Assembly: GCA_903813345.2 (NCBI GenBank)
Contig: CAIIXF020000004.1
Coordinates: forward strand, 20,620,477-20,684,476
Length of the DNA stretch: 64,000 nt
Source: Owenia fusiformis
Lineage: Eukaryota > Annelida > Polychaeta > Sabellida > Oweniidae
Direction of reading: 5' to 3'
The notes below the pieces were generated by a model, which saw only the letters and a list, made by a program, of their open reading frames with translations, did no database searches and had not been told where the DNA came from. The number at the start of each line of letters is the position of its first letter. The stretch's first letter is position 1. Positions 351 to 61,835 of the stretch are shown in pieces. The translations under genes and the position numbers were made by a program.

Positions 351-3332
351 CCAAATCAGACTTCTGAAATTGTGCCTCAGCAATGCTACCATCACTTCTT
401 TGAATGAAGCGGAATGGTTTCTTATATAATTCATCAAGAGGTCGTTTCTTCACCCGTTCGCCTGCTGTCTTATTTACGTCAGGTTTATCTTTGATCACTT
501 TGCCATCCCTTTGGTAGATTAGCATTATTACTTGAAGTACTAACGACAGAGACATGTTATATTCGGAAGAAACTAATAATATATCAAGGTTTAAATAATG
601 CAGACAAATGCATCTATATAAGGAATATATTTTAGCTTACCATTTTTTCTTATTCATTTGCGAAATCATGTTATTCTTTATAATGCTGTACCATCCAATA
701 ATGATATTAAGAGTTATAAATAAAGTATGTTGAAATCTATGATAAACTTTACCACACAAACATAAAAATGAACATGGTAGTGATTTACCATATACGGGGT
801 GTTGCATATGTATGCACCTCCCTCTAGACTCATTCATGTAGCATTACCACCCTTTCATGTTATATATCATTGTTTCCTTATGAAAAATTACATAAGACAA
901 AGTTTCAAAATCAATTAGGGGCGTCCCTGGAAAGGATAAAATGTATCAAAGTATGTGGATATGGGTAATTTATAAGCATTTTTTAAGCATTTTTGGACCC
1001 GGTCCGGTGATCTACATTCATTTTGTCCTTTGCCCATTTCTAGTGATAAAGGTGGTACTATGGCCCCTGGCCTCCCTTTAAGCCACTGCACAAATCCCGT
1101 CTATATCTATTTGTGAAGAACTGTCACAAACATATTGACTGAACTCTTTCATGATGACAACTGCAAGAAATGTCTAATTCGGGAACTAAATTTGTCCTTC
1201 GAATTGCCCTCAAAATGACCGGAAATTGCCCCTAAATAACCCCGTACCCACATTCTTTGATACATTGTACCTTTTTCAAGGACACACTTGAATTCCGAAA
1301 CTTTTCAATCTTATGTAACTTTCTATGAGGAACAAATTTAATGATTTATAACATGATATGATGGCGATGCTAAATATAAAGAGGAATGTACATACTTGTA
1401 CATATGAAAACCCTGTATATTAGTCATCGTAATCTAAGCAAAGAAGAGTCTACGTTACATGATATACTAGTCGGACGTTTATTATTACAACCGTGATTGA
1501 AGTTAGCGGCCGATCAACATAAAATCTTACCTTATAGGATCTATCTTTATATGATGCATGTGGACCAGATAGAGAACTGCCCCAGTTCCCTCGTAGGGTC
1601 CCCCAGCAACTGGAAATGATTTTAAGGTTTTAAAATACTATTTTAAATAATAAATAATAAACTAAATTAATAGTAAATAAATAAAGTGATAACTGAAACC
1701 TCCAAGGACAATAACAAACGAAGCAAAGTTGAATTTACATTTTGGTCATTTCGATCATACATCACAAGCATAACTGTAATCACGACAAAGTTGTACATTT
1801 TTAAAAAATGTTAATCAATCAATTTTGTCTTGAATTCAACACAAAGTGTATATAAGACGTTTCGTCAACTTACGTCCTATTTCGTCCACCTCTACAATTG
1901 CAGAAACGCGGAATGTTTGCTTCGTTTCACCCCATAGATAGACGTAACTCGTATAGGTATATTGTAACGTCGTCTAAAATTACAAAGTATAGCAGAGTCA
2001 ATATATTTCTGATACACTCATTCATCAACCCTTTCTATGGTTATTTGTTTATCTTTATTTCCTTCTTTCAAGAAGAGCTTTTTACATTACCTATACAGAC
2101 AGTTATTTACAAACAAGTATTTACAAAACAAAATTATTTACATTCATTTGATTTTGTTCTACCGCATGCATACTTTGCCAGTAAGATAATTATTTCTTCA
2201 CGTATATTTTCGTTAAACTGAAGGTCAGTATTTGAACCAAGGAGTGTTTCAACGAGAACTTCGTCATCTCCATTTAATAATTGACAAGATGAGCTCACGT
2301 CTAATACATTCGTAATTATCGAAAAATACGATCTCGTTCCAGCGTTAATCCTTAACATTCCATAAGGGTATGTTTTGTGATATTTCTGTATTCACTTTGA
2401 CATAATGTTTTTTGTAATCTTTTGGAAGCCATGTGTGTTTTTAACCAAATAAGCAACACTCGATCAAGTTTAACTGTTTACATAAAACCAACATTCAAAC
2501 ATATATATGAACGTTGGAATCTTGAAATTAGTAGGTAGTGAAATAGACATAATGTAAAATTATCAAGTTACACCAGAAGTATTCCCTCGGCTCTATTCGT
2601 GAACGTATAAATGCCACGTCTCTTTACTCCGTTTGCGTTTAGTTGCAAACAATCAAAATCAGAGTTAGTTTTTTTCTATTTTAGAGTTTTTTTTATTGTA
2701 TTATTTTCCAGAGTTAGTATTTCTATTACTTCATCCTTAGAACGCCATCTCGTGTACGTCTTGATTTTGATATATGTACCAGTCCTTGAAGTATGTTGTT
2801 TAAGATACAACTTTTTCTTCTAATCTCATAATTTAATTAAAAAAATAAAACATGCTTTGACTACATATTATGAACGACACTAAACAAAAAGCTATATATA
2901 CGTTTGTAATACTTGATACTACGTTACATAATATCATGACGTTGCACCATATTTTAGATAAAACAAAAGATGTTTGGACATGCTATTCATTTCTGATTGT
3001 CATATTTATTTTAGATTGAACGACATATGTTAATAAACATATGCTATTGCAGTATTTTACCGTGAACGTAGAATGTGATCGAATTGGATTCAATAATTTT
3101 TTGAAATTTTTATGAATGGCTTAGATGTAAAAGAAATATAATATAACTAAACTGAATACTGCATTCGCTCAATTTTGATTTCATGATAATTCTAGATATA
3201 CAGGTAGTTACATTAATTCACCAATTATTACATAAAAATTCGACCTACCTCGTCGGCTGTAACACTGCAGAGTAGAAAAGCCGATACAAGATGCACTAGC
3301 ATCATGACAGTTGTCTCAGAGATGCCCCTCAT
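351..3332 (-). CDS. Gene A: LPD_N/vitellogenin-like secreted protein, exons 1-4 only (5' part, runs off left edge)
   Basis: Minus-strand exons: 3332-3249, 1973-1874, 1609-1531, 508-351, all with GT-AG borders and phases 0,1,2,1, the same as genes B and C. Exon 1 encodes a signal peptide (MRGISETTV then a hydrophobic stretch LVHLVSAFLLCSV ending TADE). Exon 2 encodes YTYTSYVYLWGETKQTFRV. Exon 3 encodes GPYEGTGAVLYLVHMHHIK. Exon 4 encodes LDELYKKPFRFIQRSDGS. These match the N-terminal beta module seen in B and C, which I place in the large lipid transfer protein (LLTP) family by architecture. No stop or frameshift is seen in the four exons, so the gene looks intact as far as it goes. Exon 5 onward must lie left of base 1. 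It is transcribed away from gene B. The start could instead be the second Met at codon 10 (3305). Confidence 0.85.
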
Positions 3333-3361
3333 GATTGGTAAATCACATGATACGGACCATG

Positions 3362-3369
3362 CTTTTATA
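3362..3369 (-). promoter_or_regulatory. TATA box of gene A
   Basis: On the minus strand the sequence TATAAAAGCATGG lies 37 bases before the first ATG of gene A. Genes B and C carry TATATAAGCATGA and TTTATAAGCATGG at the same place, and A and C share flanking words such as GGTCTTGTG just upstream. Conservation between paralogues and the spacing support a core promoter. Confidence 0.6.
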
Positions 3370-4670
3370 ATCACAAGACCCGGATTTATTTTTTACCAAT
3401 AAGCCTATACACCCACACGAGATCCAAGTTTAAAAATATACGACGAGATCCAATTGGTTGATATAATGGTAATGTTTATTACTCTATTTAATAGACAGGT
3501 GTTGCGTTGGAAAATCATAAACAATCCATTTTTAACTTTTTCTAAGTATGTATTATAGTTTGATTCTATTGAAAATAATAAAAGAGAATGAATAAACGAG
3601 AGCATTGTTGAAATACAGTTTAAACGGTAGGTTTAGTAAACCTACCAACTTATTTAATCAACACAAGATAAGCATGGTAACAAATAAAAATATAAAGTAA
3701 TTCAAAGTACAATGCTCAAGCTATGTTTATTTTGTTATTATCTCAGTATTCTTTGAGGGTTGACATGATATCAACTTCACTTGCTATAAAAGTGCACGTG
3801 TAATGCTAAAATTATTTCATCTGTATCATAAAAGATGGCAGCATATGCTTAAACTCAACAACTGCACATGAGATATGCACATAAATATCTGTAATTGTAA
3901 GAATGGGACTCGTTTGGTCCTTTTGTATAAAAGCTTATTATCTGATCAGTTACGATTCTGTTTTATAGGTCACGTTGCTTTGATTGGTCACAAAATTACG
4001 AAACTTATGAAAATTCTCTTGTATATTCTGATACATGTGATAACTCCATGTGAAGTTCTCGAAATTGATATTCAAGAGTTGAATATATCATAAATCTAAT
4101 ATACTGAGCTAATGTAGGCCTATGTATTCATAGGGAATTCTATGAAAAATAATTATAACTGATTGAACAAGCATCAGGTTGTAACAGTTTGACATTTCTA
4201 ATATAAGCTATACTGGGATTGATCAGGCCTTTGTTATGTTTACATTCTACAATAAAACATAGCAATAAAAAACTATCGATGAAATGAACTACTTTGAACA
4301 TATTGAATATTACAGATTCATCTAACACGTATTTGAAAAAAAACGCAAAATATTTTGTCCTACTTCCATTGGACTTCTTCAGTTACTATGGCGTGAAAAT
4401 TGACGTTTCAAGTACAACACTGAAATTCATACACAATAAGTTTAGTCACACAATAATGCAAATATACAAGCATGTATTCACCTAACAAAGTGATATTCTA
4501 TAAATAAAAAATTAACATAATTCAACAGATTTACTGTTTTCTCCCTAAAATCTAGAGACCTTAAATAGCAATCTGGCCTCTCAAATAAGTATATCATACC
4601 TTTACTATTGATTTTATGACATAGTATAATATTCCAAATTGTTTGAAAATAGTTCACCTATAAAATGATA
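3370..4670. other. No recognisable feature
   Basis: AT-rich sequence upstream of gene A. Short open frames occur on both strands but none shows family motifs or splice structure. It may contain regulatory DNA for gene A. Confidence 0.4.
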
Positions 4671-4981
4671 TATAAGTCAATGTACCCTATTGAACGTAAC
4701 TATTTTATCCTGATTTGAAGTTGGGTATTGTTTTTTTGGCCCACCCTGCATATATGTATAGCTGTAGAGGCTCCCTGGTCTCCTGTATATCAACCGATGT
4801 CCTTGCGGGTGCCGTACGGTAATCGGCAGATAGCCTTGCGATACCCGTGTGATATCTTTCAGATTTAATTGATTGTGGGCGCCGTTCGGTGCCTGTACTA
4901 ATATATATACTAATATGACCATACTCACGGCGAAATCAAGACATCGGGGAAAAGTCACAGGCGCCCGATCGATTGAGAAAT

Positions 4982-5005
4982 CGGCCGATGAATACTCATC
5001 GGCCG
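4982..5005. repeat. Perfect GC-rich hairpin in a GC-rich island
   Basis: CGGCCGATGA and TCATCGGCCG form a perfect 10-bp stem with a 4-base loop (ATAC). The surrounding 4760-5035 is much richer in GC than its neighbours. A mariner-like end, GGCCCACCCTGCATATA, sits to the left near 4738, which may mark one edge of an unrecognised element. Function is unknown. Confidence 0.5.
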
Positions 5006-5136
5006 GCGCCCGGTGAAAATGTGACCTAGGCATTAAACTTTTCATTTTGATGTTCAAATAACAATCAAACCGTCAGTCAACTAACACTGATCGCATTATC
5101 CATTATAAAGCCACTGGATGAGGACATATTTGAGGA

Positions 5137-6860: not shown

Positions 6861-7890
6861 TAGAAGATGTACCAACTTAGACTCTGTAGGCTGAATCAAT
6901 CTTAGATTATGGATGCTGTACCCATTGTAGACTTTGAAGGATATACACATTAAACATTAGAGGCTAAACCCTATAAGACCCTAGAGGCTGTACCATCTTA
7001 GACCCATTTATTTATCACAGCTGTGACTAAATGGTAATTCTTGACATCTTAGACTCTAGAAGATGTACCAACTTAGACTCTGTAGGCTGTATCAATATTA
7101 GATTATGGATGCTGAACCAATTGTAGACTTTGGAGGATATACCCATTAAACATTAGAGGCTAAACCCTCTAAGCCTCTAGAGGCTGTACCATCTTAGACT
7201 CTAGGAGACTATACCCATCATAGACTCTGGAGAGGCTGTACTATCTTTGACTCTTGAAGGTTTTACCCATCATAGACACTGCATCTGAAATGTGTACCAT
7301 CTTCTCTTGAAGGCTGTTCCCAGAACTCATCAAAGGCTCTGGAGGCTATACCATATTTGACTCTTGGACTATACCCATTGTAGACTCTGGAGGCTATACC
7401 CTCTTAGACTCTTGGATGCTATACCAACTCAGACTCTTATAGGCGGTACTATCTAAGAATCTTGGAGGCTGTACCTATCTTTGACTCTGACTGTCATAGA
7501 AATCAGAGACTATTGTGGCTGTACTATATTTGGTGTATACTATACTCTGAAGTTACATCATGTTAGTCTAGAGGCTAAATTCATATTATACTCTGGTGGC
7601 TGTACCATCCTAGACTCTCGAGACTGTACCATCTTAGACTTTTGGAGGCTACCATCTCAGATATTTGTAGGCTATACTTTCGTAAGACTCATAGAGGCTG
7701 TACCCATCCTAGGCTCTAAATGCTATAGCAATCATAGATTTAGAATTTTGTAGCATTTTTGACTCTTGATGCTGAATACATGTTACACTCTAGAGGCTGT
7801 ACCATATTATATTCTTGAGACTGCATCCGTCTTATACTCTTGAGGCTGAGGCTCTTGTATCTGAACTTTTTTATGGTCTAAGGCTCTACC
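6861..7890. repeat. Degenerate ~28-30 bp tandem repeat inside the foldback element
   Basis: Units resemble TAGACTCTAGAGGCTGTACC followed by ATCT, repeated some 30 times with drift. A higher-order copy is visible: the block starting TAGAAGATGTACCAACTTAG at 6861 recurs at 7057, an offset of 196 bases, with few changes. The frame at 7481-7753 is a by-product. Confidence 0.8.
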
Positions 7891-11674: not shown

Positions 11675-12439
11675 TATCGCACTTTGAAGAGCAAACTGGC
11701 CACCATGCAATTTACCCAGCATGGCCAAAACCTAATCAGACCTTGGCACTAGTCTGCTCTTGCATCTGTAAACATTTCAAGTTGACAAGGTTAGCGGTTT
11801 TCCTGCAATTTTGATGACAAGAATTTATTTGTAGTCTTGAACTTTGGGAAAATTTAGATAACATTGTTTGTGACCTAATTTGATGACCAAAATCCAAAAG
11901 ATCAATTTAGAAAATCAACTTTTTTGACCTTTTCAAGGTCACTGAAGGTGAATGAAAGGTCAAATCTGAAATCTAAGGTCAGATTTGAGCTTCTGAGAAC
12001 TTGTAGATGTTTTTAAAAAAAGATTTGGTCAATTTGGAGCAAGTTGAAAAATTCAAAATGGCCGCCAAATTGAAAAATTCAAAATGGCCACCATGTAATT
12101 CAGCCAGCATACCCAAAACCTAATCAGATCTTGGCAATAGTCTGTTCTTGCATCTGTAAAAATTTCAAGTTGAACGGATAAGTGGTTTTCCTGGAATTTT
12201 GATGACAAGATTTGTTGAAAAATTCAAAATGGCCGCCACGTAGTTACCCAGCATGCCCTTAACCTAATCAGGTCTTGGTACTAGTCTGCTCTTGCATCTG
12301 TAAAAATTTCAAGTTGAACAGGTAAGCAGTTATCCTGGAAATTTGATGACAAGATTTGGTTTATGTGCCGCCCACCCGCACGCCCGCACGCCCAACAGCA
12401 CAAGACGACGACAATATAGCACTTTTTCAAAGTGCGATA
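11675..12439. mobile_element. Short inverted-repeat element with internal repeats
   Basis: TATCGCACTTTGAA (11675-11688) and its exact complement TTCAAAGTGCGATA (12426-12439) bound 765 bp. Inside, a unit of roughly 140 bp containing CAGCATG, CCTAATCAG, CTTGGCA, TCTGCTCTTGCATCTGTAAA and TTTCAAGTTGA occurs three times (from about 11700, 12085 and 12230). No coding capacity is seen. The frame at 12356-12781 starts inside it and looks accidental. Confidence 0.7.
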
Positions 12440-12832: not shown

Positions 12833-13120
12833 CAATTTTACTTTCGTGGAAGATTTCCCGTATCACGAGTTGAAACGTGATATAAACTGATAGTTTTGAA
12901 AGTATTGCTGGAGTATCAAAAAAGAGTAATGTGTATTTTTTACCCTTATTGTCGCGATTTCAGCGGGAACTTGCTCGCGATTTTAACCTACGCAGCCTTT
13001 TTGCATCATACCTGTGACGTTTATTGAATGAAAAGCAATGAATTGTTGTAAAAATATAAATTTTGTTACTGTACGTTTAACACGTTGTATTAATTAACCC
13101 AAAGCATATTCATATTTATT

Positions 13121-13405
13121 CCATAGTTAGCATGATATTCATAGGATAACATGTGTAAATAAAAACGGTATTTTTGTAATCAGTGGTAAAATATGATATT
13201 TTTGACAAATTATTATTTAACCATAGCATACGGTTTTTTAGCCATGACATACGGCGCTTTACTCCATAGTTAGCATGATATTCATTGGATAACATGTGAA
13301 AATAAAAACGGTATTTTTGTAATCAGTGGTAAAATATGATATTTTTGACAAATTTTCACTTAACCATAGCATACGGTTTTTTAGCCATGACATACGACGT
13401 CGTAT
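13121..13405. repeat. Two-copy 143-bp tandem repeat
   Basis: CCATAGTTAGCATGATATTC starts at 13121 and again at 13264. Both copies run through GGTATTTTTGTAATCAGTGG to AGCCATGACATACG with only a few differences, which suggests a recent duplication. Confidence 0.85.
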
Positions 13406-13680: not shown

Positions 13681-15059
13681 ATCCTAGAATGTTTCCTAGA
13701 ATGTATCAAATATTCAAAGCAATTGCTCATTTTCAATCATGATAGCATTATTGATACAGCATTGATATAAACAGGTAATTACTGTATGCTATTTTCATTT
13801 TTATTGCATCCATGTATAGTTAACAAGAGGAAATGGCGTTAACCTACGACTAACTCTACTTATCATCGACGTTCTATATTTGATTTTCCTCGAATTCTTT
13901 AAGCAAATCCCCTCTACTTATTTTTGAAAGGTGAAAAATGTCATTACGTTGTATATATACATCGTTTGTAGCGTAACCATGACTGACCTAGTAATGAAGT
14001 TATGGCGACAACGACATGATCTCATATTTAAAGTAACAAATACAATATTAATTTTATAATTCCAATAAGATGATAAATAACCATGAAATATGAACAACAT
14101 ATCTAGAGAGGCGAAAACATCATAGTCGTACTGAATACCAAATTGAACAGAATTAAATTGAAGAAGGTTAGTAAAGATTACATTCCTTAGAATTTTCTGG
14201 TGAAAAATGTATACAACAAATCATGTGTCATAGGAAGTGGGTGATACAAAGTGAATTTCACCTTTCTTTAATTCGGATTTCATTTCATTTATATTTAATG
14301 CATACTCTTTGCTATTGTGTAACATGATTTATGTTGATGATGTATGTTCAAATATACTTTTGGGTAGGCGGGGCACTTTTTACCTCACATTATTCATTAG
14401 TAAAACAACAAAATAGTAGGCAATTTATGAGTTTATCACATGAATTTCTTCTCCACTTTTTACTTGTACATAATATTACTTAATGTAATAGTCACAAGTA
14501 TTGTCCCATAGGGTTTTAGAAATATACGTGGTGAAACTCAATATACTCTAGGGGCGAGGAGGAAAATTCTCAATAAATGGTGTGTAGTTGGTTTGGCAGT
14601 ATTTTCAGTTAGGGGGGAGTCTTGGATGAAACTTCCACCTAGGTGATAGCTACGCAGAGTGGTAGGAAGTTCTTTTTTTGAGGAGTTAGCCACCCACCCC
14701 CCAAAAACACCCCACCCTAGGGAAAACATTTTTCACACTAAATAACCTTAGATATTTTGATGTTTGTAAGTGACATACATAGATATTATATATAAAAATG
14801 ATTTGCAGTATAATTGATGCTGATTACTCCTAAAGAATTTGAATATTAGTATAAAGTGTGTACCCCAGGGGGCAAATTCTCTTATTTTCTTACTGTTTTG
14901 ATTCTAACTTTTCAATTAGACACTGTAAGATATTGAAAAAATTCATGTGAAGTGCCTAATAGCAGGAATAGTAACCCTGAAAGGCGCAAACCCATGGAAG
15001 AAGTAGGAGCTGAGAAAAAAATTGTTGATTTTTCGAAAAATTTGACATTTTTGACAACT

Positions 15060-15790
15060 TGATTTTGTGTATGACTATAGCTGACCCCTATAGTTTCTAG
15101 ATCCATCCCTCTGTGATGATATTTATGGTTTTATAGTGTGGAACTAAGATGTAAAACATAATTTAGATGAGTTTGAAGGAAGTTAAAGGTTTTAAACAAG
15201 TCCAAAATTTGAAAAATTGTAAATATAAGGTTTTAAATTTACGAATTCCAGGTATAGCCATGGCTGACCCCTATAGTTTCTAGATCCATCCCTCTTTGAT
15301 AATATTTATGCTTTCATAGTGTGAAACTAAGATGTAAAACATAAATTAGATGGGTTTTAAGGAAGTTATAGGTTTTAAACAAGTCCAAAATTCGAAAAAT
15401 TGTAAATGTAAGGTTTCAAATTTACGAATTCCAGCTATAGCCATTGCTGACCCCTATAGTTTCTAGATCCACCCCTCTTTGATGATATTTATGGTTTTGT
15501 AGTATGGAATTAAAGATGTAAAACATAATTTAGATGGGTTTTAAGGAAGTTAATGATTTTAAACAAGTCCAAAATTTGAAAAATTGTAAATATAAGGTTT
15601 CAAATTTACGAATTTTAGGTATAGCCATGGATGACCCTTATGGCTTTTCCATCCATACCTCTATGATGAAACATATACTTTGAGAGTGTGAAACTAAGAT
15701 GTAAAACATACCGAAGATGAATTTTAAGGAAGTTTAAGAATTTTAACAAGTGCAATATTTGAAAAATTGAGAAATATCAGGTCTCAAAGG
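15060..15790. repeat. ~185-bp tandem repeat in the left arm
   Basis: Four units start near 15065, 15255, 15435 and 15615. Each begins around ATAGC(C/T)...TGACCC and runs through GATGTAAAACATAATTTAGA, GGTTTTAAACAAGTCCAAAA and TTTGAAAAATTGTAAATATA. The right arm (about 18600-19400) carries the same units inverted. Confidence 0.8.
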
Positions 15791-18527: not shown

Positions 18528-20811
18528 CATGACTTTTCACTCCATGTATATGCAGCAGACTAACTGCTGCAACAGGTATATATTCTAAACCTGGTCTCTA
18601 AGCTATGATATCACACAATTTTTCAAATTTTGCACTTGTTTAAAACCTTGAACTTCCTTCAAACTCATCTTAGGTATCTTTTACATTTTAGTTAAATACT
18701 CTAAAAATATATTTCATCACTGAGGTATAGATGTAAAAAACATAAGTGTCATCTTTGGCTATACCTGAAACTTATAAATTTGAAAACTTACATTTACAAT
18801 TCTTCAAATGTTGGACTTGTTTAAAACCTTCTAAAACTGTATATTCAATCATAGAGGTGTGGATGTAAAAACCATAAGGGTCAGCCATGGCTTTACCTGA
18901 AATTGGTAAATTTGAAACCTTATATTTACAATTTTTCAAATTTTGAACTTGTTTAAAACCTTTTAACCTATCTAAATTGTGTTTTACATATTAGTTCCAT
19001 ATAGGGATGGATCTAGAAACTATAGGGGTCTGCCATGGCTCTACCTGGAATTTGTAAATTTGAAACCTTATATTTACAATTTTTCAAATTTTGGACTTGT
19101 TTAAAACCTTAAATTTCTTTAAAACCCATCTAAATTGTGTTTTACATATTAGTTTCACACAGCAATACCATAAGTATCATCATAGAGGGATGGATCCAAA
19201 AACTATAGGGGTCTGTCAGGGCTCTACCTGGAATTCTTAAATTTGAAACCTTATATTTACAATTTTTCAAATTTTGGACTTGTTTAAAACCTTAAATTTC
19301 CTTAAAACCCATCTAAATTATGTTTTACATCTTAGTTCATACTATAAAACCATATACACATCATCATAGAGGGATGGATCCAGGAACTATAGGGGTCAGC
19401 TATAGTCATACACAAAATCCAGCTGTCTAAAATGTCAAATTTTTCGAAAAATCAACAATATTTTTCTCAGCTCCTACTTCTTCCATGGCTTTGCATCTTT
19501 CAGGGTTACTAACCCTGCTATTGGGCACTTCACATGAATTTTTTCAACATCTCACAATATCTAATTGAAAAATTAGGATCAAAATAGTAAGGAAATGGGT
19601 CACAAATTTGTGCCTGGGGTACACACTTTGTACTAATATTCAATTATTTTAGGAGTAATCAGCATCAATTATACTGCAAATGATTCATATACATAATATC
19701 TATGTATGTCACTTACAAACATCAAAATATCTAAGGTTATTTAGTGTGAACAGTTTTTTTCCCAGGGTGGGGTGTTTTGGGGGGTAGGGGGCTAACTCTT
19801 CAAAAGAAGAACCTCCTACAACTCTGTGAAGCTATCACCTAGGTGGAAATGTCATCCAAGACTTTCCCCTAACTGAAAATGCTGCCAAACCAACTATACA
19901 CCATTTATTTAGAATTTTCCCTCCTCGCCCCTAGAGTAATATGCAAAAAAAGACCAGAGGAGTCTTGATTGTGCTATTCTATGGCAAAGAGCCTCTTTAA
20001 AATGCCGACTTTGAATAAACCTTCGTACATATTTTGATAATCATGGTAGAAGGTTTTAAATCATGGAATCATCTCCAAAACCAGAAAAATAAAGCCCTGG
20101 GGGATTTCAGTTCGATCCTCAAGATATTGAATTCGCTTTGTATCCTATTATGCGAAGAATGAATATTTTCTTAATTTTTGGTACATTTCAAAATGTTCAG
20201 AAATGTTCAGAGTGAAGGAAATGACATCCAAATTCTAAAATTTCCTTGGGCCCCTTGTTGGTTAGCTTCTGGTCTTCCTTGCTCATCCATCGGCCGACAA
20301 TCTAACAATCAAGGCGCAACCCCTGACCTGAAATCCTCGATCCACACCGTTACGGTGTATGAAATTGCACGGGTTGAGTATGAACTCTTCTTAACGTTAT
20401 TCTATGTGTTAGAGATATCACATAAATATAGGATATTAATATAGGATAATATAGGATGTTGATACAGTTTTAACACCATAGTCATACAATGCATCTGCTA
20501 AGTGTTTTTAGACATAAAGTTCCAAGTAGAATGGGAGAGACATTTTATTTTAGAGTACATTGTAAACTCATCTCTATAAGGGAAGTCCTCATTGAGTTTA
20601 TAAAAAAATATTTTTATAAACGTTTACAATAAAATTTCAAAACAACATAAAAAGTTCGTTCGACAAGTATGCACTTTAACCTACTGCTCATTGGAGTTCT
20701 TAGAACTACCGCATGCCAATGCCTCTTGAGCATTATCGGTTCTAATTTTGTCATATTGAGGGGTGAGAGTAAAATTATTTATTTAAAATGCCTCTTAAAC
20801 ATATTTGCTTT

Positions 20812-47847: not shown

Positions 47848-48960
47848 AGGCGCGTTATAAATGATGCGCTTCAAATTAATCATTATAGTAAAAGGTTTTG
47901 GCGCATGTAAGTATAGTTCAATTTGGCGTGTTATATAGGATTTGCTTCAAGTTCATGATTATAATTAAAAAGTTTTTTTTGCGCATTAGTACGAGGGTTG
48001 TCCCAAAAGTAATGCACTATATACTCGAACTTTATTAATAATTTCCATTATTTTTTTTAGTGAATATTCCTTAGAGATATTTTGATTTTAATCACAAATT
48101 AACAAATACAATTTTGTGTAGCCATAAGAAGTATGCTAGAAAAATATTTTAAAATACTAAATTACTAGATTTAATGGATGCATATTGTAAAGTATCCCAT
48201 TCCACATTTTCTCATAATATAGGCCTTTGCATGTAATGTTCTTTTGATGCCTTCTCACCCAGTCCTGGTACATTCTTGGCAATTTCGTCCACTCTGACAA
48301 AGTGAGGTGTTTGGTCTCCCAGGTTTCGGGTTGTCATCCAGGGTCGAATCACCATTTTAAGATATCTTCTGCCACCTCATAATTGTCGTTCTTTCTGCCC
48401 TTTACTCCTTACATTACTTTCTCCATGGCAGCATAAGTTTGTGCAGAAATTTGGCGACCGAACGCATGTTCTTCTAATCAGGTTTGAGAATTGGGGCCAT
48501 TTTTGCAACTTCTTGACTGTGACTGAATTTGAATTTGTGACTTAAACTGTGGTATTATGCAATCACAATACTAAATTTCATTATTTGAGCTTGGTAAACA
48601 TCCTGCTGAATAAGTTTACCAATTTCCCTAATATTATGATTACATAAAAGAATGAAATATAAATAGAATAACACTTTAAAGTTTTTCACGATGAGAAAAA
48701 TTGGTACCTGCCCCATCCATCTCTACCCCTGTGTTGCTATAGCAACCATTCTAATACTTAACATTATTGAATGATGCTGAAACTTCAGGATATGACACTT
48801 CAAATGCAATGTACACACAATTTCAGCTGATTTGAAGAATATTAAAAAATGTTAGAGCATACAGAGCATAGTGCATTCCTTCTGGGAAAACCCTCGTATA
48901 GTTCAATTTGGCGAGTTGTTTATAATGTGCTCCAAGATCATAATTTTATTTAGCAGTTCC
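47848..48960. repeat. ~78-bp tandem repeat, interrupted by a mariner-like element
   Basis: Three units end in AGTTCAATTTGG or begin CG(C/T/A)GTT: about 47850-47927, 47928-47989 continuing at 48899, and 48912-48960. The middle unit is split exactly by the element at 47990-48898. Confidence 0.65.
47990..48898 (-). mobile_element. Mariner-like transposon relic
   Basis: ACGAGGGTTGTCCCAAAAGT at the left pairs with ACTTTTGG-like TTCTGGGAAAACCCTCGT at the right, and TA flanks both. On the minus strand about 48350-48290 reads GDSTLDDNPKPGRPNTSLCQ, a form of the D-PRSGRP-T linker of mariner-like transposases. The rest is broken by stops. Confidence 0.75.
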
Positions 48961-48999
48961 AATTTCCCTTTTCTATAATACTATACTTACGCAGTTCAC

Positions 49000-49895
49000 A
49001 AAAGGTTTTAAACCTACTCAATTGGCCAACTCTTGAATCAAGACGCAGTATTCAGATTAACAACTTTATGTTCAAAATTGTAAATGGTACAAGTCCTCCC
49101 TATGTAACTGATATTTTTGACAAATTTAGAAACCATGCAAACAGAGTATTGAGATATAATGAAGCATTTAAAATGCCCATTAGATGCTCAAATAGATTCT
49201 CCACCTCAGCAATACCAGCTGCAATTTCAAATTGGATCAATCTTCCACCTGCTATTAAATCTAAGAATACTCTTTCGAATTTTAAAAAACACCAAAGAGT
49301 ACATTTCCAAAAAACGCCCTCGATTTTGTCAACAAGCCAGCTTAATCTAACAAGGGTTCAAGAAATAGTTCTCAATAAAGTGAGACCTGACCTATACTTC
49401 AAAGCCCAGTTCTACGCTCACAACTTTCAGTCTATTGACAGCCCTAATTGCACTTGTGGAAAACCACAAACTCTGAAACATTTTCTCTTTCAATGTGACT
49501 TACTTACTATACAAAGACAGCAATTCATGGACAAACTCACTGATCTCGAACCAAACATCTTCAGTCATAATCTCTCTCAAACTGATTTCATAGCTATTTT
49601 GAAAACAGGAATTCCCAAATTAAACATAGATGCAAATTCCCAAATACTACTTCTCATTGTTAATTTTATCAAAGACAATAGCTAATTCCCTCCTTCTTAT
49701 CCATCTCTAGTATCCTCAAGTCCCGTCACACCTGCCCTAGTCCAAGACCCTGCCTGCTCTGCCACTTCTACTTCCACCTGCCCCCTATTCTTATATAATG
49801 CCATTGTGGCGATTTAAGAATTTACATTCTGTATTTACATTTTTTGTATTCTATTGAAAAAAATTTAATAATAATAAAAAAAAAAAAAAAAAAAA
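49000..49895 (+). mobile_element. 5'-truncated LINE 3' end, same type as 29695-32108
   Basis: Contains a 205-codon open frame and a 3' UTR ending in AATAATAATAAAA and a long A run. The frame matches the end of the 666-codon frame at protein level. Its tail abuts the MITE end at 49896. Confidence 0.8.
49068..49685 (+). CDS. LINE ORF2 C-terminal fragment
   Basis: 205 codons, open. It aligns with residues about 460-666 of the frame at 29851-31851: FKIVNGTSPPYVTDIFDKFR against the YKIVHGPNPKFLDDIFDKFK region, then NLTRVQEIVLNKVRPDLYFK, then CTCGKPQTLKHFLFQC. It has no reverse transcriptase core and cannot act alone. The first Met is internal to the original protein. Confidence 0.8.
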   Translation: MFKIVNGTSPPYVTDIFDKFRNHANRVLRYNEAFKMPIRCSNRFSTSAIPAAISNWINLPPAIKSKNTLSNFKKHQRVHFQKTPSILSTSQLNLTRVQEIVLNKVRPDLYFKAQFYAHNFQSIDSPNCTCGKPQTLKHFLFQCDLLTIQRQQFMDKLTDLEPNIFSHNLSQTDFIAILKTGIPKLNIDANSQILLLIVNFIKDNS

Positions 49896-49916: not shown

Positions 49917-49919
49917 TAG

Positions 49920-51470: not shown

Positions 51471-51474
51471 ACAA

Positions 51475-52270: not shown

Positions 52271-52297
52271 CATGGTTCGCATGTTATTTGCCAAATC

Positions 52298-55200
52298 ATG
52301 CAGGGAATTTCGAAGACCACTGTCATGATAATCCTATATCTCGTATCGGCTCTTCTACTACATGTATGTGGGGTAACAGCCGAACAGGTATGTGAGACGT
52401 TTATTTGCATTTGTAAATTAGTAAATATGATTACTTTGATTGTTTTTATTATAAATTCCATCAGAAAGCAGTGCTAGCAATATATATATTCTCAGTTTCA
52501 ATATGACATTTTTCTTTTCTTAACATTGAAACCAATGAACCTTAGAGCCCCAATACAAAGTTAAAACTACTTTGGCTTAAATTGTAGTCTTACCCAATGT
52601 TATCAAAGTGTGATATGTGAAAAAAACTATTAAAAAGTGTTTTTGGAGGACTTTTTGTTAGGAAATTTATTTAAAACTCACCTCTATAGGTCACGCGTAT
52701 CATTGAATAAGCGATAATTCACACCAATCCTCGGCGTTCATTCTCATGCGGTTTTTGCCGAAAAAATTAAGAAAAGTGTTAATAAATAAGCGAGAAATGA
52801 ACTCATCCGTACATGAAAATGGTTCAGAGAAAAACGTAATTGAAAATTTTAGTTATCATAGAAACCAATGGCTCAATAATATTTTAAACATAATATATTC
52901 TTCCTTTTAACCTGGTTAGACAATCAACATTGGTTTATTTTTTAATTAGTTTAGCATATTTAAAAGAGATTGACATAGACATTTTTTCATTTCTTCAAAA
53001 ACCTGCCACCTGAGTGATGTAATGATGAGGTCACTTAGGTTGCAAAATATTTTTGATGTGCTAAATCATTGAAGTGGCTTTGACCAATCTTTTCATTGGT
53101 GTTAAAAAGAACAAGTTTTTTACTGTATTGTGGAATATTTTGTGTTTTTCAATTTCAACTTTTATTTCAAAATGGTGGAAATTTGAATATTTGAGAAATG
53201 AAAAGCTGGCAACATTTTTTATATTTTGTTTTTTTACAAAATCTCTACTTTACATTTTTAGACGACGTTGCAGTATACCTATACGAGTTTCGTTTATCTA
53301 TGGGGTGAAACGAAGCAAACATTCCGCGTTACTGCAATTGTAGAGGTGGACAAAATTGGACGTAAGTATAGTAAATGTACACCTAAATTCAACAAAGCTT
53401 GTATTACATAAACGTTGTTGGTTGCTTTTTAATTAATGTGTCCATCTCTTTTCAGCTGCCAAAGGCCCGTACGACGGAACCGAGGCTGTTATTTATCTTG
53501 TCCATTTGCATGATGTTAAAATCGACCCTATAAAGTAAGCTTTCAAATACCTTATTTGATCGATTTGTCACTTGTTGTTACAAGCTAGAGACATCTGAGT
53601 AAATGATACTTATTAACAATTAATCTTAGGAATTGCAGCAGTTAGCTGTGAACTAGTTTGTAAGGGCTACTCGCGATATTAGATCTCCGCTACAAATAGG
53701 TTAGCAATATACATGTATACAACAATATATACAGGGTGGGCCAAAAAACGCCACTTTTTTTCAAAATGCTATAACTTTTTTAATTTTTGGAACAAAATCA
53801 TAATTTGCATACCAAATGAAACTTGAGGTTGTTATCTAGCCATGGATCATGAATTATACACTTTTACTTGAATAAAATGTGTCACCAGCGTCTCACTTAA
53901 ACATGTGGCCTGCCATGAGAAATAAGCATAATTTGCAAAATGTTCCTGAACTAATACGGCCTGATGATCGTCAAGCTAATAGTCCTGATGCAAACCCCAG
54001 TGAGTATAGGGTATGGGCAAGTCTCCGGGAGATTGTATGAAGGCACCACGTCTAAAAAATTGCTCAACTAAAGCTTGCAATAAGGCACGTTGAAGAAAAA
54101 TATAGCTAACATTTCATTGATACTGCTATATCAGCAAGGCGACTAAAACTAAAATCTATCATCAAATAGGGTTAAATATAATCCAAGTTGAAGTACTTGT
54201 TACATTATATTATTACTAAGATCCCTTGGCATTATATAACTGCAAAATTTTGGGTATGTAGGTTGAAAAATAAAAAGTTATAGTGTCTTGAAAAAAGTGG
54301 CGTTTTTTGGCCCACCCTGTATACAGCTGCACATATGCATGATGTACTAAAACCATGATATGTTATATTCTGTAAAATATGTTTAATCCTATTACCTCAA
54401 AATAATACTCCAGAGATGGCAAAGTGATAAAAGTTACACATGGAACAACAAGGACAGCCGGTGAACAACTGGAGGAGCAATCACTTGATGAACTGTACGA
54501 GAAACCATTCCGCTTCATTCAAAGGAAGGATGGGAGCATTGCTGAGGTAGAATTTCAGAAGTCAGACTTAGGTAATTGACTATTTTTATCAAAGTGGTTG
54601 AACTTATTGATTCCTGTATTACACGCATGTATGCCTGTTAGAATATCAGAATCCAATCATGTTTTGTTCAGCTAAGTAAGGATGGTACTCAGTTAACTGG
54701 AGCTAGGACAGATTTAGGGACATCACTTCTGAGGTCCTTTGGTGGTTTTTTGTGTAAGCTTGCCTCTGCTAATACATACATATACTCATAAGAGCAATTA
54801 TTAAGAGTTAGAGACAGTTTAGCCAGTAGCAGGGACCTGAACTTTGTTGTCTTACGTACAGCGGCCCAATAAGTAACAAATGTCTATACATTAGGGCAAG
54901 TGTTGCTTTTTTACCAGCTTGATGAAAGCACTAAACTATCTGTAAACATTTTAGAAAACACGGAGGTTGTTAATTTCAAAAAGGGTGTACTGAGTGCATT
55001 CCAAACACACACTAATAATCGAGATGAAGAAGATGTGGAGGAGACAGACGTACTTGGTAAACACACAGCTCATTATAGGTAAGTTATAAAATATTAGGTG
55101 AATTGTGTTGCGAAAAATGGTAAAATATCAGATCAGGTTGTGAGTTTGAATGTTGCTTTATTATGAAATAGATGTAGTAAAACATCAAGTGCTCATGAAA

Positions 55201-58200
55201 AAACGTATTCACGTGAATCCTTAATGGCTACTTAATTACGATTATTCATATTCTAGGGTTATACATTTTGACCATATTAAGAGGATCAGGAAAACATACA
55301 AGACTGATGACATCAAGCGGTTCGGTAATGATGAAGTCAACAAAGACGGCATTGACGTTAATGTCGAAGAAGAACTGACAGTTGATGAAAGAAATAAAAT
55401 ACTCGAGTCTAAAGGAGTCATGAAGATAAGAATTAAAAGAAATACAGAGAAGGTAAAGATATCCAAACTTAAGAGAAGTTATACGATGCAAAGTGTTTCA
55501 CAAGGGCACGTGGACAATTTGGAAAGCATGTGTGCATGTTGCTTTCAGATTTTCAGGCATTTCTGATCGTATCTAAACGTAACTGGTCCCCGTTACATTC
55601 AATTTTAACAAGGATTTTAGGGCATTTCAGCACCTTAAATCCCCATAACAACCATATTTGATCAGGCTTTTCAAATCTTTTATTTTCAATGTATGAAACT
55701 AGAATGTCCAAGGGAAACATTGAAGCGCTTTGAAAATTGCTGTAACTCCCGTAATCATTTTTATTATTTAATCATTGTTTGCACGCTCAGAACTATATTT
55801 TTCAAGGAAAAGAGATACGCCGAGGAAAATAGTCCTCATACAATATATGTAAGGGCAACAGATGTGGACATTGCTGATAACTTCGACTCCGACAACACCT
55901 TTGATATGAAGTTAAAGAAAGAAACAAGTCGGTCCTTAAATCGTAAAAGGCGCATGGTAGAACTTGATACAATCAAAAAAGATTCTTTCGTTACAACCTC
56001 ACTGCTTGGGGATTACAGTCAAGGTAATTAGTCCCCACGGTATATTGTGAATATTTGATAAAAATGTTAAGTTCTGAATGGAAAACAACATAGAGGATCA
56101 GCAATAATTCTGACATATCTTTCAAAATATGAATAACATTTATTTGTGAAACTCTACATACCATGCTTATATTTCAATTAAGGTATTAACAAATGCAAAT
56201 ACACAGACATCATGGGTCTTCGATCATATTTGTAATGATGCAAATTCATATAATACAGTATAAAACATTTGTTTGATATCTCATCATGGATATGATACAT
56301 TTATAAGCACTCTATCCAATGATTTTCTCATTCTTCTTCAGAAAACGCAAAGCGCCATAGATTCGATAAACTTTTGGAACTTATAGAAGAAGAAGGGTTG
56401 TTGAAGATTCTTAAACGATTTTATGATTCACCGACAGATACAGATATATGTAAGTAGAGATATATTCATGTGTACTTTGTAGTTAATAGTGGTGTTTTAT
56501 GTTGATTAGGGTATTATATGAAGGGCAATATCAATCGGGAGGGTTTATGACTACTCATAGTTGACTGATTTATTTGAAACTCCAACGAATTTCAATAACC
56601 CAGATGCGAGTAGAAATAATCTTGATTTACGTCATTAAAAATTCAAAACTCAGTGAAAGTAATATCATATTTGAAATCTACGTGTAAAATTACATCTAGA
56701 AATGTGGTTTTAAAAAGAGTTTATCAACTTGTGAAAAATTAATTTTCTTTGAAAATGTGACTTCTAGCTCAGGGAGATTCCCCATAGACCCCATGCTATA
56801 AAATCACAAAAAATGAAATATCTTTTCTTTTAGTGGACAGATAATATTTTGCTTTACTGGACATATTTTCATTAGTATAAGTATCAGGCGCATACGGGTT
56901 ATATGAAAATTGAGCCACTTAAATTGATAATATTCAAGTTTAAGGGAACTTTCTTATATACCTGCCATGTTAATTGACCCGAATCAGCCACCTGGTGGTG
57001 AAACTGGTAACTACCTACTCGCATTTGGGTAATTGTAGAAGCACCTTCTGTGTGAACTGTATGACACTCTACTGGATGGGCATACACCCTTAGTTTCACA
57101 ACGAATCTTTATATCTTAGATGCGTTTCATTTGTAGCTCGATAGTACAGGGTGGTCAAAAACGGAACCCCTGTATTTTCTTCATATCTTTGTCATTTTAA
57201 GAATTAACTGATATTATAACATTTGTACATAATTTAGTTTCCTACCCTCCTTCCATATTTCATGACCATCAGACTGATAATCACAATTTTACAGCACTTT
57301 GAACAACATGCTTCAGGTTTGACCATCATCGCGCTGTAGGCAAACCTTTATAGTTGCCACTGACGCAAATGCATTCCTCAGCAGGTATGGTCTGGATGAT
57401 ACAGATGATCTTACTTTTGAGGTCTGCAATTGTCCTGTTGTCATTCTAATATACTCTATCTCTGCTATATCTCCAGAGGTAGGGACATTTTGGAGAAGTG
57501 CAGGTTTCCAGACAGTGCAATAGTGATAGCTGGGGCATATTATTTAAAGTGCTGTAACATTGTGACTACAATAATGACTTTAATAAGCCAAAGATATGAG
57601 GAAAATTGTGCATGGATTTCCGTTTTTTACCACCCTGTATTTGCAAAAGAAGGGAATTCATTTGACACTGATCCAGCTACATGTAAACCTAAATACGTTC
57701 GTTGGGCAAACTTTTAATGTAAAGCTTTGATGAAATGTTAGAATTGTCGGATTCATGTTTAATGGATATTCACGCATAGATCAACTGTAAGTTCATTTTT
57801 TTATTGAATGCCTAATGCAAACCTTTTCAGTACGTCATATAAGAGAGGCGTTACATCTTGAGAACCTCCTTAGTGCAAGACATGTGTCCTCCAAAGATCA
57901 TCACATTAACGTGAAGAATGGAAAAAGTGCACCACGTGTCAGCTTGATCAGTAGAGTCGTAAAGGAAACGAAATCGGTGAGTTCTCGGAAAATGTATCAG
58001 GGTTTACCCGTTACCTTGACAAACTCAATGTCAAATTAATGTGATGTAATGATATATTTTAGATCAATATGAGTACAGATACAAATATTCGCAATGCTTC
58101 ATGCATCTGTATTTATTTCAGAAATTGACCGACTGCATCAATCACTGGAAACTGTGTAAGGGTATCGTCAATCTGTACATTGTCGGTGGTCAAGCTGCAG

Positions 58201-61200
58201 GTGAAAAGGTAGATCACCAGTCCTTACACATAATAGAGAGATTCTGCAACTCACTTATAGGATGTTTGTTATTCCAGTTTAGCGTAAAACTTATGAAGCG
58301 CATGAATACGTCACTATTTATTGCGCAGCTCAATACGCCAATAAGTGTGATTTATAAGAATATCCTACTTATGGACGTACTAGAGAGATGCGCAATAAAT
58401 TGGATATTCATGTAAACCCTAACATACTCATGTATGTGGACCTGATGGCGACCCTATTTAAAATTGATAGGTTGAATATGTAAAGTACTTTGTTTGTTCA
58501 CAGATATTATCTTTATCATCATTTGTTTTGATAACTTGATTAATTACTGATGAATTAATTCGTCAAAGCATGTGCATCATTTAGATTTTGACAACATGAA
58601 TTACATACAGCTGGACTTACAACAATGCAAAACTGAAATGAACTGAATTGATTTACTTTACCATGAAAAGTCGTTCCCACATTATTCAATTTAAGTGGAT
58701 GATTTTGATTTTGGAAACATTGATTTTGGAAACATTTTGTCAAAATCAGTTCAATAAGTTGAAACTCGGTTTAATATTTGCAGATGATCAAAGCAATGTT
58801 GATGATGAAACTTTCTGATAGAAACCTCAATGAATTCCTGTCAATGTTAACCTCAATGAGGAATCCAAGTGACTCACTCGTGGACGCTGTGAGGAAGAAG
58901 TACCAAGATGAAAGTTCAATAGAAGTGAAAGCAACCTTAATGTTCACACTGACTGCATTAGCCGGGCAAAGATCTGTTAGTAAAGAACTACGAGCAGCAA
59001 TAACTAAATCAATGCTTGAAAAATTATCAACTATCAACAAAGACAACTGTCAAGCTGATGATAACGTATTTGATGTGTTAGAAGCAACTGGAAACCTCGC
59101 AGATCCGGCGATTATAGATCGTATGATTCAAATAGGAAAAGATTGCACGAATACACCCGCGTTGGTAATGGGAACAGTCCACGCCTTGGCAGAAGTTTGT
59201 TCAGATCAACGTGTCATTGACTACTACACGATTTTGATTGAAAATGCCGTGTGTGACGTTAAACTGACAGTTCTTGGGAGCATGAGGGATAAAATAAGTA
59301 GCGACATCGTCGAAGGCCGGCATGGTTCTTGGCCAAGAGAATCATTCGACAGTCTTGACTTTAGACTGAAAGAAATATATAACGAAGACAGCGGAGATTT
59401 TCTTTGTATACATGATGAAATTTTCAAATATTTTAGTGATAAACCAGGAAAGAATGCAGAAGCTTTTTTGACTACTAGCACCAAATCGAAACGAGGTATT
59501 CTCAATCACTATTCATGCTCAACATGGGGACCTTATGGCTCTCGATATACGAAAATGCAATCGCCATCCTCCTTTTCAACAGATAATTCAAGGTACCCTG
59601 ATAACAGACACTGTTTAGCTCATTTTAGACTCGGGGTCAGCAATGCTAATGCTAATCTTTACGCAGGGGCGTTCGCAGGCATCAATAGAAAGTACTGTAA
59701 CTGGAAAATATTTGCACGAGTCTACGCTGGTGCAAATGTTCTTGGGAAGAGCTTTTCGCTAGTGTCAGCCCACTTTTACCAGTACAAATATGGAACATCG
59801 TTTAAGTTACGGGCTTACTTAAAGATCGGAAGTAAGACTCATGTTGATTATACACTCACGTACAACGTGCCATCCTACTCGCAAACGTGGTCAAAATATT
59901 GGCAGTGGGATATTGACATATGGGGTATCAATATATATATTGGTTCTTTAACTCTGAGGGTTACCATAAAACCAGGTGTACACCTCACAGTGAAAGTCAA
60001 CCCCTGCTATACGGGATGTGCAGTTTGCGCAACAGTCACCCCCAAGGTCACTCTGCAGATATCTGGTGGTGCATTTGCATCTTTATTGGTAAGTTCTGCA
60101 AAAAGGGCAAACTAGAAAAGGGTAACTCCATAAATTTATATAACCAGACGATCAATATGTTCAAAATATAGGCAATTTCTCGAACGATTCATATACGCGT
60201 CCTCCATAAGTTTGGAAATTGGAAGTCCCTGTTTGGTTAAACTATAAAAGTGTCTTTTTGATGATATAAAATAACAATCTGCCATAAGTTTCAGAATTTA
60301 TGTGATTGTGGAACAAAATAAAGATCGAAACATTTGATTATTGACAGGCTTTAGAATATGTTGTATGACAAAAGATTAGATTCAATAAGTTTCATATATC
60401 CTATGATTTTGCGTAAGGTTATTTTTATCCACGAGTCAATATCAAAAGATGGACGAGTGAGCCTGGCAAAGCGAATGAGTGCAGATATTGATAGCAATTC
60501 GTGAATTAAAATGATATCAAGAAAAGTCATAGGATGTTTTATTTTATCCCCCCGCCCAGCCGTTGGTGTAATTATTTATAGCCTAATTTAAGGGTTAAAG
60601 AGGAAGTTGAAATGATACATAATATACACATAATATATACATGTGCACCTTTTAAAGGCAGTCATTAGGGGTGGTATTGACGTTAATGTAAAGCTGAACT
60701 ATCTGGTTGAAGGCGTTGGGAGAATAGGTGTCTACTCAGGCGTCTGCGTTGGACTTTACCACGGACACGATCCGATGAATGTCTTCTTTTCTGCATGGTA
60801 TCAGATTCGTTCAAAAATCAAAATACAATTCAGCTGGTGGCCGGTATGTATGTATATTCCTGCATCGCAATTATCAACAAAATGGTTGATCAGAAAATCC
60901 ACCTGACCATTTTAAAATTTCTATAAGCGAATTTTTGTAACCAAAAACAAATATACTTTCTATATATTTTGAATTTGGATTGCAATCATGAATTGCAAAA
61001 AATGGTTTGGGGAGGGGAGGGGCGTTAGACGATGTTTTTTATGCGTTGGATCATTGCTTTAGTCATGTTAATCCGACTGGATAAATTTTAAAGCATTTTA
61101 ACTTCAAGAAAAATCAGTTTATTTAATTATGAGTAACGCATGGGTTTAGTTATTGCAATTTGTGGCATTCATTATGCCTTGATTCTGTGTGTTCAGCAAC

Positions 61201-61835
61201 TTAAAGGTAGATTGTTCGTACAACTGAATTTTAAGAATTATTTGCTACTGTCATCGTTGAAAATAACAATAAGGTCTTCTAACAATAATAATCGAAATAA
61301 ATTAATGTTGGATGGAGGGGAGAGTGAATGGAGGGGGAGTAACGTGTATATAAGACACGATAAGACATGCTACAATACTTGGATTTATTCCTATAACTCC
61401 CAATTTTCCCATTTTTCATTCTCCAGAAAAATAATATCCAGTTTCTTACTTACTTTGTTCCATCGTAAAGACATAACCCCCCCCCCCCTTCATTCACTCT
61501 CGCCCCCCTCCATCCAAATTATTTCATTTCGATTATTTTTTTGTATAACGCATGGAAAATAACACACCATCTTCAAAACACGTTAAACGACTTAATGAAA
61601 TGAACTATGAAAATAAAGTATCTCTTATTTTAAGCCTCGCTTTAAATTTGAATGGAAATGGGGAAGCAGAAAGACATGGACCCCGAAAACAACTTCTTGG
61701 AGTATATTGTCGGCGTCTAGGAAGACCATTTACTGGAATTGCCTTGCAGGATGGAAGAAACCGATAACAAATGTATACACGATTGCATCTAAGGAACGGA
61801 TGTCAGTATCATCGGCGCGATTGTCTACTGGATAA
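52298..61835 (+). CDS. Gene C: MTP-sized secreted LPD_N protein, tandem paralogue of gene B
   Basis: Exons: 52298-52387, 53262-53361, 53456-53534, 54414-54571, 54895-55078, 55257-55452, 55807-56023, 56342-56449, 57831-57976, 58122-58208, 58784-60088, 60658-60843, 61635-61835. They join in frame into about 1018 codons with the same intron phases as B, plus one extra intron near the end. Residues 1-30 are a signal peptide. The beta module (to about 345) contains NFKKGVLSAFQTH and EETDVLGKHTAHYR; the helical module runs to about 680. Basic sites are RKRR (315-318) and KSKR (689-692). The C-terminal region keeps all eight cysteines. The start may be Met10 (52325). Exon 5 could start at 54901. Exon 13 is inferred from homology. 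Confidence 0.82.
53730..54321 (+). mobile_element. Mariner-like relic in intron 3 of gene C
   Basis: ACAGGGTGGGCCAAAAAACG at the left pairs exactly with CGTTTTTTGGCCCACCCTGT at the right; TA flanks both. Inside, the plus strand reads NSPDANPSEYRVWASLREIV, the decayed SPDLNP-D-WG-L block of Tc1/mariner transposases. Length is 592 bp. Confidence 0.85.
57145..57639. mobile_element. Internally deleted mariner-like element in intron 8 of gene C
   Basis: Ends ACAGGGTGGTCAAAAACGGA and TCCGTTTTTTACCACCCTGT with TA on both sides. Internal words CATGACCAT-AGACTGATAATCACAATT and CAACATGC match 10700-10770 of the longer element, so this is a deleted relative. No transposase motif remains. Confidence 0.8.
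58784..60088 (+). CDS. Gene C exon 11: helical module, KSKR site and start of C-terminal domain
   Basis: 435 codons, phase 0 at both ends. Preceded by TTTGCAG and followed by GTAAGT. Strongly similar to gene B exon 11 throughout, including GNLADPAIIDRMIQIGKDC, DIVEGRHGSWPRE, YAGAFAGINRKYCNWKIFAR and CYTGCAVCATVTPK. The furin-like motif is KSKR here rather than RSKR, which is a weaker match to the R-X-K/R-R rule. Confidence 0.93.
60398..60545. repeat. Diverged palindrome in intron 11 of gene C
   Basis: ATCCTATGATTTTGCG at the left is mirrored by GAAAAGTCATAGGAT at the right, with inner parts TTTTTATCCACGAGTCAATATC and GATATTGATAGCAATTCG. Related in layout and sequence to 13547-13680. Confidence 0.55.
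60658..60843 (+). CDS. Gene C exon 12
   Basis: Starts after TTTAAAG with AVIRGGIDVNVKLNYLVEGV and keeps GVCVGLYHGHDPMNVFFSAW. After SAWYQ it departs from gene B (IRSKIKIQFSWWP) and reaches a GTATGT donor at 60844. If not spliced there, the frame ends at a stop at about 60904-60906 and the protein loses its last cysteine. Confidence 0.75.
61471..61513. repeat. C-rich tract in the last intron of gene C
   Basis: A run of ten C at about 61480, followed by CTCGCCCCCCTCCATCC. It gives the intron a strong pyrimidine stretch about 130 bases before the proposed exon 13. Confidence 0.7.
61635..61835 (+). CDS. Gene C exon 13 (terminal)
   Basis: After TATTTTAAG the frame PRFKFEWKWGSRKTW continues through SILSASRKTIYWNCLAGWKK to TAA at 61833-61835. 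It matches gene B WWWGGRQTW ... SASRKTIYWNCLAGW. The frame joins exon 12 in phase. The longest open frame read here (61552-61767) is in a different, incorrect frame. A polyadenylation signal follows about 40 bases later. Confidence 0.75.
   Translation, partial: PRFKFEWKWGSRKTWTPKTTSWSILSASRKTIYWNCLAGWKKPITNVYTIASKERMSVSSARLSTG

Follow-up and report, generated by a model that had tools for sequence, protein, structure and literature searches.

The microsomal triglyceride transfer protein (MTP) resides in the endoplasmic reticulum (ER) as a heterodimer with protein disulfide isomerase (PDI). It is one of the large lipid transfer proteins (LLTPs), which are sorted into three families, APO, Vtg/CP and MTP, in the accessible part of PMC1783640. 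By domain content, vitellogenins (Vtg) are characterised by DUF1943 and VWD, apolipophorins (Apo) by DUF1081 and MTP by LPD_N only; in Biomphalaria the Apo proteins comprise 1,237 and 3,607 amino acids (aa) and the vitellogenins (BgVtg) 2,346 and 2,422 aa (PMC10799875, accessible part). In apolipophorin II/I and the crustacean apoCr an RX(R/K)R site is located between the motifs N19 and N20 (PMC1783640, accessible part). Here we describe a family of LPD_N genes from the annelid Owenia fusiformis with a C-terminal part of its own. The window, i.e. the whole stretch of DNA that was analysed, comprises 64,000 nucleotides of contig CAIIXF020000004.1 (assembly GCA_903813345.2, positions 20,620,477 to 20,684,476; G000:C4:20620477-20684476), and the genome searched for relatives comprises 498 Mb. 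An annelid source is also suggested by three matches on C6 to the erythrocruorin linker domain (PF16915), which marks annelids; one of the three contains a stop. A search for mitochondrial COX1 gave no match. A preliminary description of the window had proposed a cluster of three MTP-sized, secreted genes, termed A, B and C.

Three copies of one gene were first recognised by comparing open frames within the window. Splice models used GT-AG sites and were settled by scoring and by comparison between the copies. A genome search with exon 11 of gene C revealed six matches, namely A, B, C, a fourth gene D right outside the window (C4:20691389-20702941, 1000 aa; exon-11 match C4:20696211-20697512, + strand) and two genes on contig C12 (C12a and C12b, 35-36% identity). 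The three genes of the proposed cluster are thus real; however, the cluster contains four genes, as D adjoins the window, and the family has two more members on C12. Genome searches with an N-terminal peptide and a C-terminal part from C12 detected the same six genes. Each also gave a single weak match, respectively an LLTP gene on contig C1 (E 0.27) and a frame interrupted by three stops (E 0.55). The N- and C-terminal parts always co-occurred in these searches. In viral and prokaryote collections, 0/125 and 0/321 pattern matches, respectively, were confirmed as relatives.

The Vitellogenin_N/LPD_N domain (PF01347; Pfam gathering cut-off 24 bits) was found above cut-off in all five members scanned with their N-terminal region (32.9-45.4 bits). 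Spliced C scored 37.3 bits (E 1.7e-9), spliced B 32.9 bits (E 3.6e-8), A 35.8 bits (E 4.6e-9), the first 672 aa of D 41.1 bits (E 1.1e-10) and the partial C12a sequence 45.4 bits (E 6e-12). The vitellogenin-N-like module suggested previously is therefore significant in the joined B and C proteins, where its absence would have spoken against the proposal, and also in A, D and C12a. The best LPD_N stretch lies within the N-terminal sheet (profile positions 46-159 in C); a second stretch passed only a loose limit of E 10. LPD_N is the only Pfam domain above cut-off in B and C. Matches to Imm30, RelB-like, HIND, TacA1, BrxB, Ank_KRIT1 and VirArc_Nuclease all stayed below the Pfam cut-offs and were discarded as chance or generic helices. 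A profile of the family's N-terminal part aligned to three LLTPs of the same genome (hhalign E 1.3e-8, probability 95.6). The N-terminal sheet is free of cysteine in all four C4 genes, A-D; two LLTPs of the same genome, L011 and L012, directly read GNC near the corresponding place. An exon-by-exon genome scan with PF01347 missed all six genes, and such scans are for this reason weak evidence of absence. Judged by the sequence of the N-terminal domain, the six genes form a real and conserved branch of the LLTP superfamily.

Genes A-D are 75-82% identical among themselves and 35-37% identical to the C12 pair, and a tree of the six members, with partial C12 sequences, separates C12 from C4 only. 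Pairwise ratios of nonsynonymous to synonymous substitution rates (dN/dS) among A-D were 0.10-0.24 for the N-terminal sheet, 0.16-0.36 for the helical middle part and 0.13-0.34 for the C-terminal part. The proportion of nonsynonymous differences (pN) was well below that of synonymous differences (pS) in 6/6 pairs for each part. Purifying selection acts on each of the three parts.

The C-terminal part comprises the last 294-328 residues across the family, is common to all six members and is own to them. In a Pfam scan that left out the last tail residues, 0/6 C-terminal parts matched any model, which includes the MTP lipid-binding domain (MTP_lip_bd, PF19444), DUF1943, DUF1081 and VWD; the latter three were also missing from the complete A, B and C proteins. 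Cys, Trp and Tyr positions form invariant columns in the six members, e.g. in HCLAHF and LYHG. The Trp/Cys-rich C-terminal region was rightly called unfamiliar in the preliminary description, and a match to the corresponding regions of MTP, vitellogenin or apolipophorin, which would have argued against a branch of its own, was found in none of the six. The hydrophobic moment at 170 degrees, the value expected of amphipathic beta strands, was raised in 6/6 C-terminal parts (z 4.7-6.2; 0/500 shuffles reached the value in each case), and the helical moment was not raised. The helical part of C showed the opposite pattern and its N-terminal sheet neither signal. As controls we used exons of L011 and L012 that overlap Vit_open_b-sht matches; these open-sheet exons gave z 3.6 and 4.3 (0/500 shuffles), and the N-terminal sheet of L011 gave no amphipathic-beta signal (z 1.2, 64/500 shuffles). 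The C-terminal part is amphipathic-beta in all six members, like the open-sheet exons of these two carriers from the same genome. In C the signal is concentrated in residues 777-870 (z 5.2).

Between the N-terminal sheet and the C-terminal part lies a middle part that is HEAT-like and helical. HEAT_2 was detected above its cut-off of 27.7 bits in both C12 genes (C12b 28.7, C12a 28.5 bits), and the helical exon of C12b alone aligned to LPD_N 379-541 with E 1.1e-4 (21.4 bits, below the cut-off of 24). AlphaFold2 modelling of exon 11 (B and C only) predicted 13 helices followed by strands, with low confidence beyond residue 170. In a fold comparison, residues 1-252 of this model matched generic HEAT/ARM proteins; the best 50 matches contained neither lipovitellin nor MTP, which does not exclude them. 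A profile of exon 11 searched against PDB sequences detected designed alphaReps on the helical part (best E 0.00023) and no LLTP. The homology of the middle part to the helices of LPD_N is only partly shown.

Directly before the C-terminal part, all four C4 genes carry a [KR]SKR motif followed by G (RSKR in B, KSKR in A, C and D), whereas the C12 genes carry PRK/PRR at that place. Exons 6 and 7 hold more basic clusters, with the sequence RKRR in B, C and D and the sequence KTKR in A. The basic cleavage sites of the preliminary description can accordingly be specified as a candidate [KR]SKR motif in A-D together with the RKRR/KTKR clusters. As far as the motif allows a prediction, a proprotein convertase probably cleaves the C4 proteins between its R and the following G. 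A putative leader peptide, recognised as a short hydrophobic stretch by reading the sequence, opens each protein, in line with the signal peptides described before.

We consider it fairly probable that the family is a divergent, MTP-sized branch of the large lipid transfer proteins, probably secreted and processed, which would act as a small apolipophorin-like carrier. Each product would be secreted by means of its leader peptide. The cysteine-free N-terminal sheet and the HEAT-like helical arch would correspond to the shell of lipovitellin and MTP, a homology that is shown for the sheet and partly for the helices. The C-terminal strands, whose amphipathicity was observed, may take over from the usual C- and A-sheets as the lipid-contacting surface. 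Cleavage by a proprotein convertase at the [KR]SKR motif would separate shell and sheet in the products of the C4 genes. The proteins would presumably carry lipid or lipophilic molecules outside the cell and not act as an ER-resident MTP chaperone. The APO proteins (apolipophorin II/I, apoCr, apoB) resemble the family in LPD_N, the leader, a dibasic motif after the N-terminal part and amphipathic beta strands, with shuffle statistics similar to those of the two carriers L011 and L012. They differ from it in that the family proteins have only about 1000 aa, no DUF1081 and a C-terminal part of their own.

Several results weigh against the carrier interpretation. In searches of PDB sequences the N-terminal profile gave 0 hits, the whole C protein detected no LLTP (best E 0.36), and neither did the C-terminal profile (best E 0.29). 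The helical part of C alone matched 0 Pfam families, and its comparison with the LLTP helices of the same genome gave E 0.0075-0.011 at a probability of 4-5%. Within the C-terminal part of C the amphipathic-beta signal is absent in residues 677-776 (z 0.6) and weak in 871-921 (z 2.1) and 922-998 (z 1.3). The structure models are poor, with a mean predicted local distance difference test score (pLDDT) of 46.1 for exon 11 and 52.7 for the C-terminal part alone. The separate model of the C-terminal part (194 residues) is a low-confidence beta meander, and all its structural matches are under Z 8. The best are apoB (9bde_A, Z 6.0), an S. aureus protein (6u3f, 6.0), the porin KdgM (5.8) and the leukotoxin LukD (5.7); MTP (8eoj_B) ranks 24 of the best 50 (Z 4.7, root-mean-square deviation 4.9, 138 residues, MTP 581-846). 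The apoB and MTP matches thus sit among unrelated beta proteins such as bacterial toxins, porins and capping protein.

A further-reading proposal is that the genes represent an LLTP family of their own, on a par with MTP, Vtg/CP and APO. Its LPD_N shell would be fused to a previously unseen, unrelated Trp/Cys-rich amphipathic beta domain that convertase cleavage releases, and the product would be either a compact lipid carrier that is secreted or a protein active on membranes. We regard this as a serious possibility, somewhat short of probable. No such family was found in the literature searched; animal protein collections were not covered. The undescribed LLTP branch of the preliminary description is hence supported as a branch, by LPD_N and by the C-terminal part of its own; that it is undescribed is less sure and rests on literature searches.

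That the six genes are duplicated MTP genes, with a C-terminus diverged past recognition and products that still act as ER lipid-transfer chaperones, is unlikely. They do resemble the MTP large subunit (PDB 6i7s, 8eoj) in size (MTP chains 884 and 894 aa), in the N-terminal LPD_N domain and in the lack of VWD, DUF1943 and DUF1081. LPD_N as the sole Pfam domain above cut-off in B and C is the make-up given for MTP in the accessible part of PMC10799875, and the 138 residues over which the low-confidence C-terminal model aligns to 8eoj_B are the longest alignment among the best 50. By domain count the sequences fit the MTP class (LPD_N only), but not by their C-terminal part. The lipid-binding domain of MTP, for which no C-terminal part gave a match (a domain too diverged to detect would give the same result), was matched in the genome, scanned exon by exon, only at C9:34.40M, some 13-22 kb beyond the N-terminus of an ordinary MTP on the same strand. 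The N-terminus of this C9 gene finds the solved MTP with E 7.5e-7, whereas the family profile finds nothing. Moreover, the family differs from MTP in its six genes, its Trp/Cys-rich C-terminus and, in the C4 genes, the dibasic site before it; such a site and a tandem expansion are not what would be expected of an ER chaperone.

Quite unlikely, in our estimate, is a membrane-active or pore-forming beta domain in the C-terminal part, which the LLTP shell would hold soluble until it is freed at the [KR]SKR motif for defence or egg protection. The amphipathic strands of all six members, rich in Trp and Tyr and placed after a dibasic site in 4/4 C4 genes, would suit such a domain, and several staphylococcal pore-forming toxins are among its structural neighbours. 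The model behind these neighbours is, however, of low confidence, and apoB, MTP, capping protein and porins appear in the same list. The C12 genes carry only PRK/PRR at the cleavage place, and the open-sheet exons of two carriers from the same genome are equally amphipathic.

Shortened genes derived from vitellogenin or apolipophorin, encoding minor yolk or coelomic-fluid proteins, are very unlikely. LPD_N, the leader and the dibasic site would be compatible with such an origin, as apolipophorin II/I and apoCr are cut at the RX(R/K)R site mentioned above (PMC1783640, accessible part). However, DUF1943, DUF1081 and VWD are missing, and since all six members share a C-terminal part of their own, they are not simply truncated vitellogenin or apolipophorin genes. 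Vitellogenin/lipovitellin (PDB 1lsh) has LPD_N, a helical region and a leader in common with the family; unlike it, the family is much shorter, lacks DUF1943 and VWD, and has an N-terminal sheet without cysteine in 4/4 C4 genes. Exon-by-exon genome scans detected DUF1943 only in three genes on C1 and DUF1081 (PF06448) only at C1:6.32M, in one of these three. One of the three weakly matches lipovitellin (E 0.0057). The three C1 genes are of the vitellogenin/apolipophorin type and separate from the six-gene family. L012 can be called apolipophorin-like on the basis of the DUF1081 match beside it, and L011 likewise by our reading. Finally, pseudogenes or assembly duplicates, which the tandem arrangement and the retrotransposon sequence between and within the copies might suggest, are hardly credible, because frames and splice sites are intact in the spliced models of A-D and because dS of 0.36-0.84 (high for haplotypes) and an overall dN/dS of 0.15-0.31 between these genes disfavour both pseudogenes and haplotypes.

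Gene A is encoded on the minus strand by 13 exons (989 aa), of which four lie in the window: exon 1 with the leader peptide (3249-3332), exon 2 with the start of LPD_N and the motif TTLQYTYTS (1874-1973), exon 3 (1531-1609) and exon 4 (351-508). Exons 5-13 are located left of the window (C4:20602265-20620092). The span given in the preliminary description thus begins in exon 4 of A (351) and ends at the stop codon of C (61835).

Gene B (+ strand, 21836-44040) has 12 exons and encodes 953 aa. Exon 1 (21836-21898) encodes the leader peptide and is followed by exons 2 (22113-22212) and 3 (22328-22406). LPD_N sequence is present in exons 4 (22606-22739) and 5 (23352-23475), the latter with NFKKGVLSAFQ. 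Exon 6 (24735-24930) precedes exon 7 (25466-25685), which carries the basic RKRR motif. The helical part begins in exon 8 (35375-35482) and continues through exons 9 (36508-36656) and 10 (40043-40129) into exon 11 (40299-41594), which encodes HEAT-like helices, the RSKR site (40995-41006) and, from 41016, the C-terminal part. Exon 12 (43735-44040), which ends with the stop codon, is a fusion of what are two exons, 12 and 13, in the other copies and encodes about 20 residues fewer. The gap in B spans the end of exon 12, the intron and the start of exon 13, with TGG repeats at the junction; from the sequence, the intron loss looks like an in-frame deletion between these repeats.

Gene C (+ strand, 52298-61835) has 13 exons and encodes 998 aa. 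The leader peptide is encoded by exon 1 (52298-52387); exons 2 (53262-53361) and 3 (53456-53534) are followed by the LPD_N exons 4 (54414-54571) and 5 (54955-55078), exon 6 (55257-55452) and exon 7 with the basic RKRR motif (55807-56023). Here too the helical part begins in exon 8 (56342-56449), followed by exons 9 (57831-57976) and 10 (58122-58208). Exon 11 (58784-60088) encodes HEAT-like helices, the KSKR site (59483-59494) and the C-terminal part from 59507 on, which is completed by exons 12 (60658-60843) and 13 (61635-61835, with the stop codon). Comparison of the four copies showed that introns 4 and 8 contain no further exon. Genes A, C and D have identical intron phases, and B agrees with them over its first 11 exons. 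The common exon phases claimed earlier hold to this extent, but B has one exon fewer, and the claimed length of 975-1018 aa fits A and C but not B.

The window also contains retroelement and repeat sequences. A stop-free reverse transcriptase frame of 717 aa (RVT_1, E 1.6e-35) is located at 29698-31851 (+) inside the 9.7-kb intron 7 of B. Between B and C, a 243-aa relative of the C-terminal part of this frame lies at 48954-49685 (+), without a Pfam match at 0.001. Between A and B we found a large imperfect inverted repeat (14561-15769 and 18615-19920), whose arm pairs are 72-91% complementary and mostly 3-5 kb apart, with 183-bp tandem units in both arms, and short tandem arrays at 12070-12358 (units of 144 bp), 13115-13396 (units of 143 bp) and 7048-7488 (units of about 24-25 bp). 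Outside the window, exon 2 of C12a and its donor site are located inside a 113-bp tandem array of 5.8 copies with 97% matches (L005:2232-2885, C12 at about 11.254 Mb).

To our knowledge, the LLTP size class of about 1000 residues is otherwise known mainly from the ER-bound MTP. If the six genes do encode secreted carriers with a C-terminal domain of their own, an LPD_N shell can pair with a different lipid-facing domain, here in a short, secreted branch with multiple copies. A secreted LLTP of about 1000 residues would also be small enough for structural and lipid-binding work.

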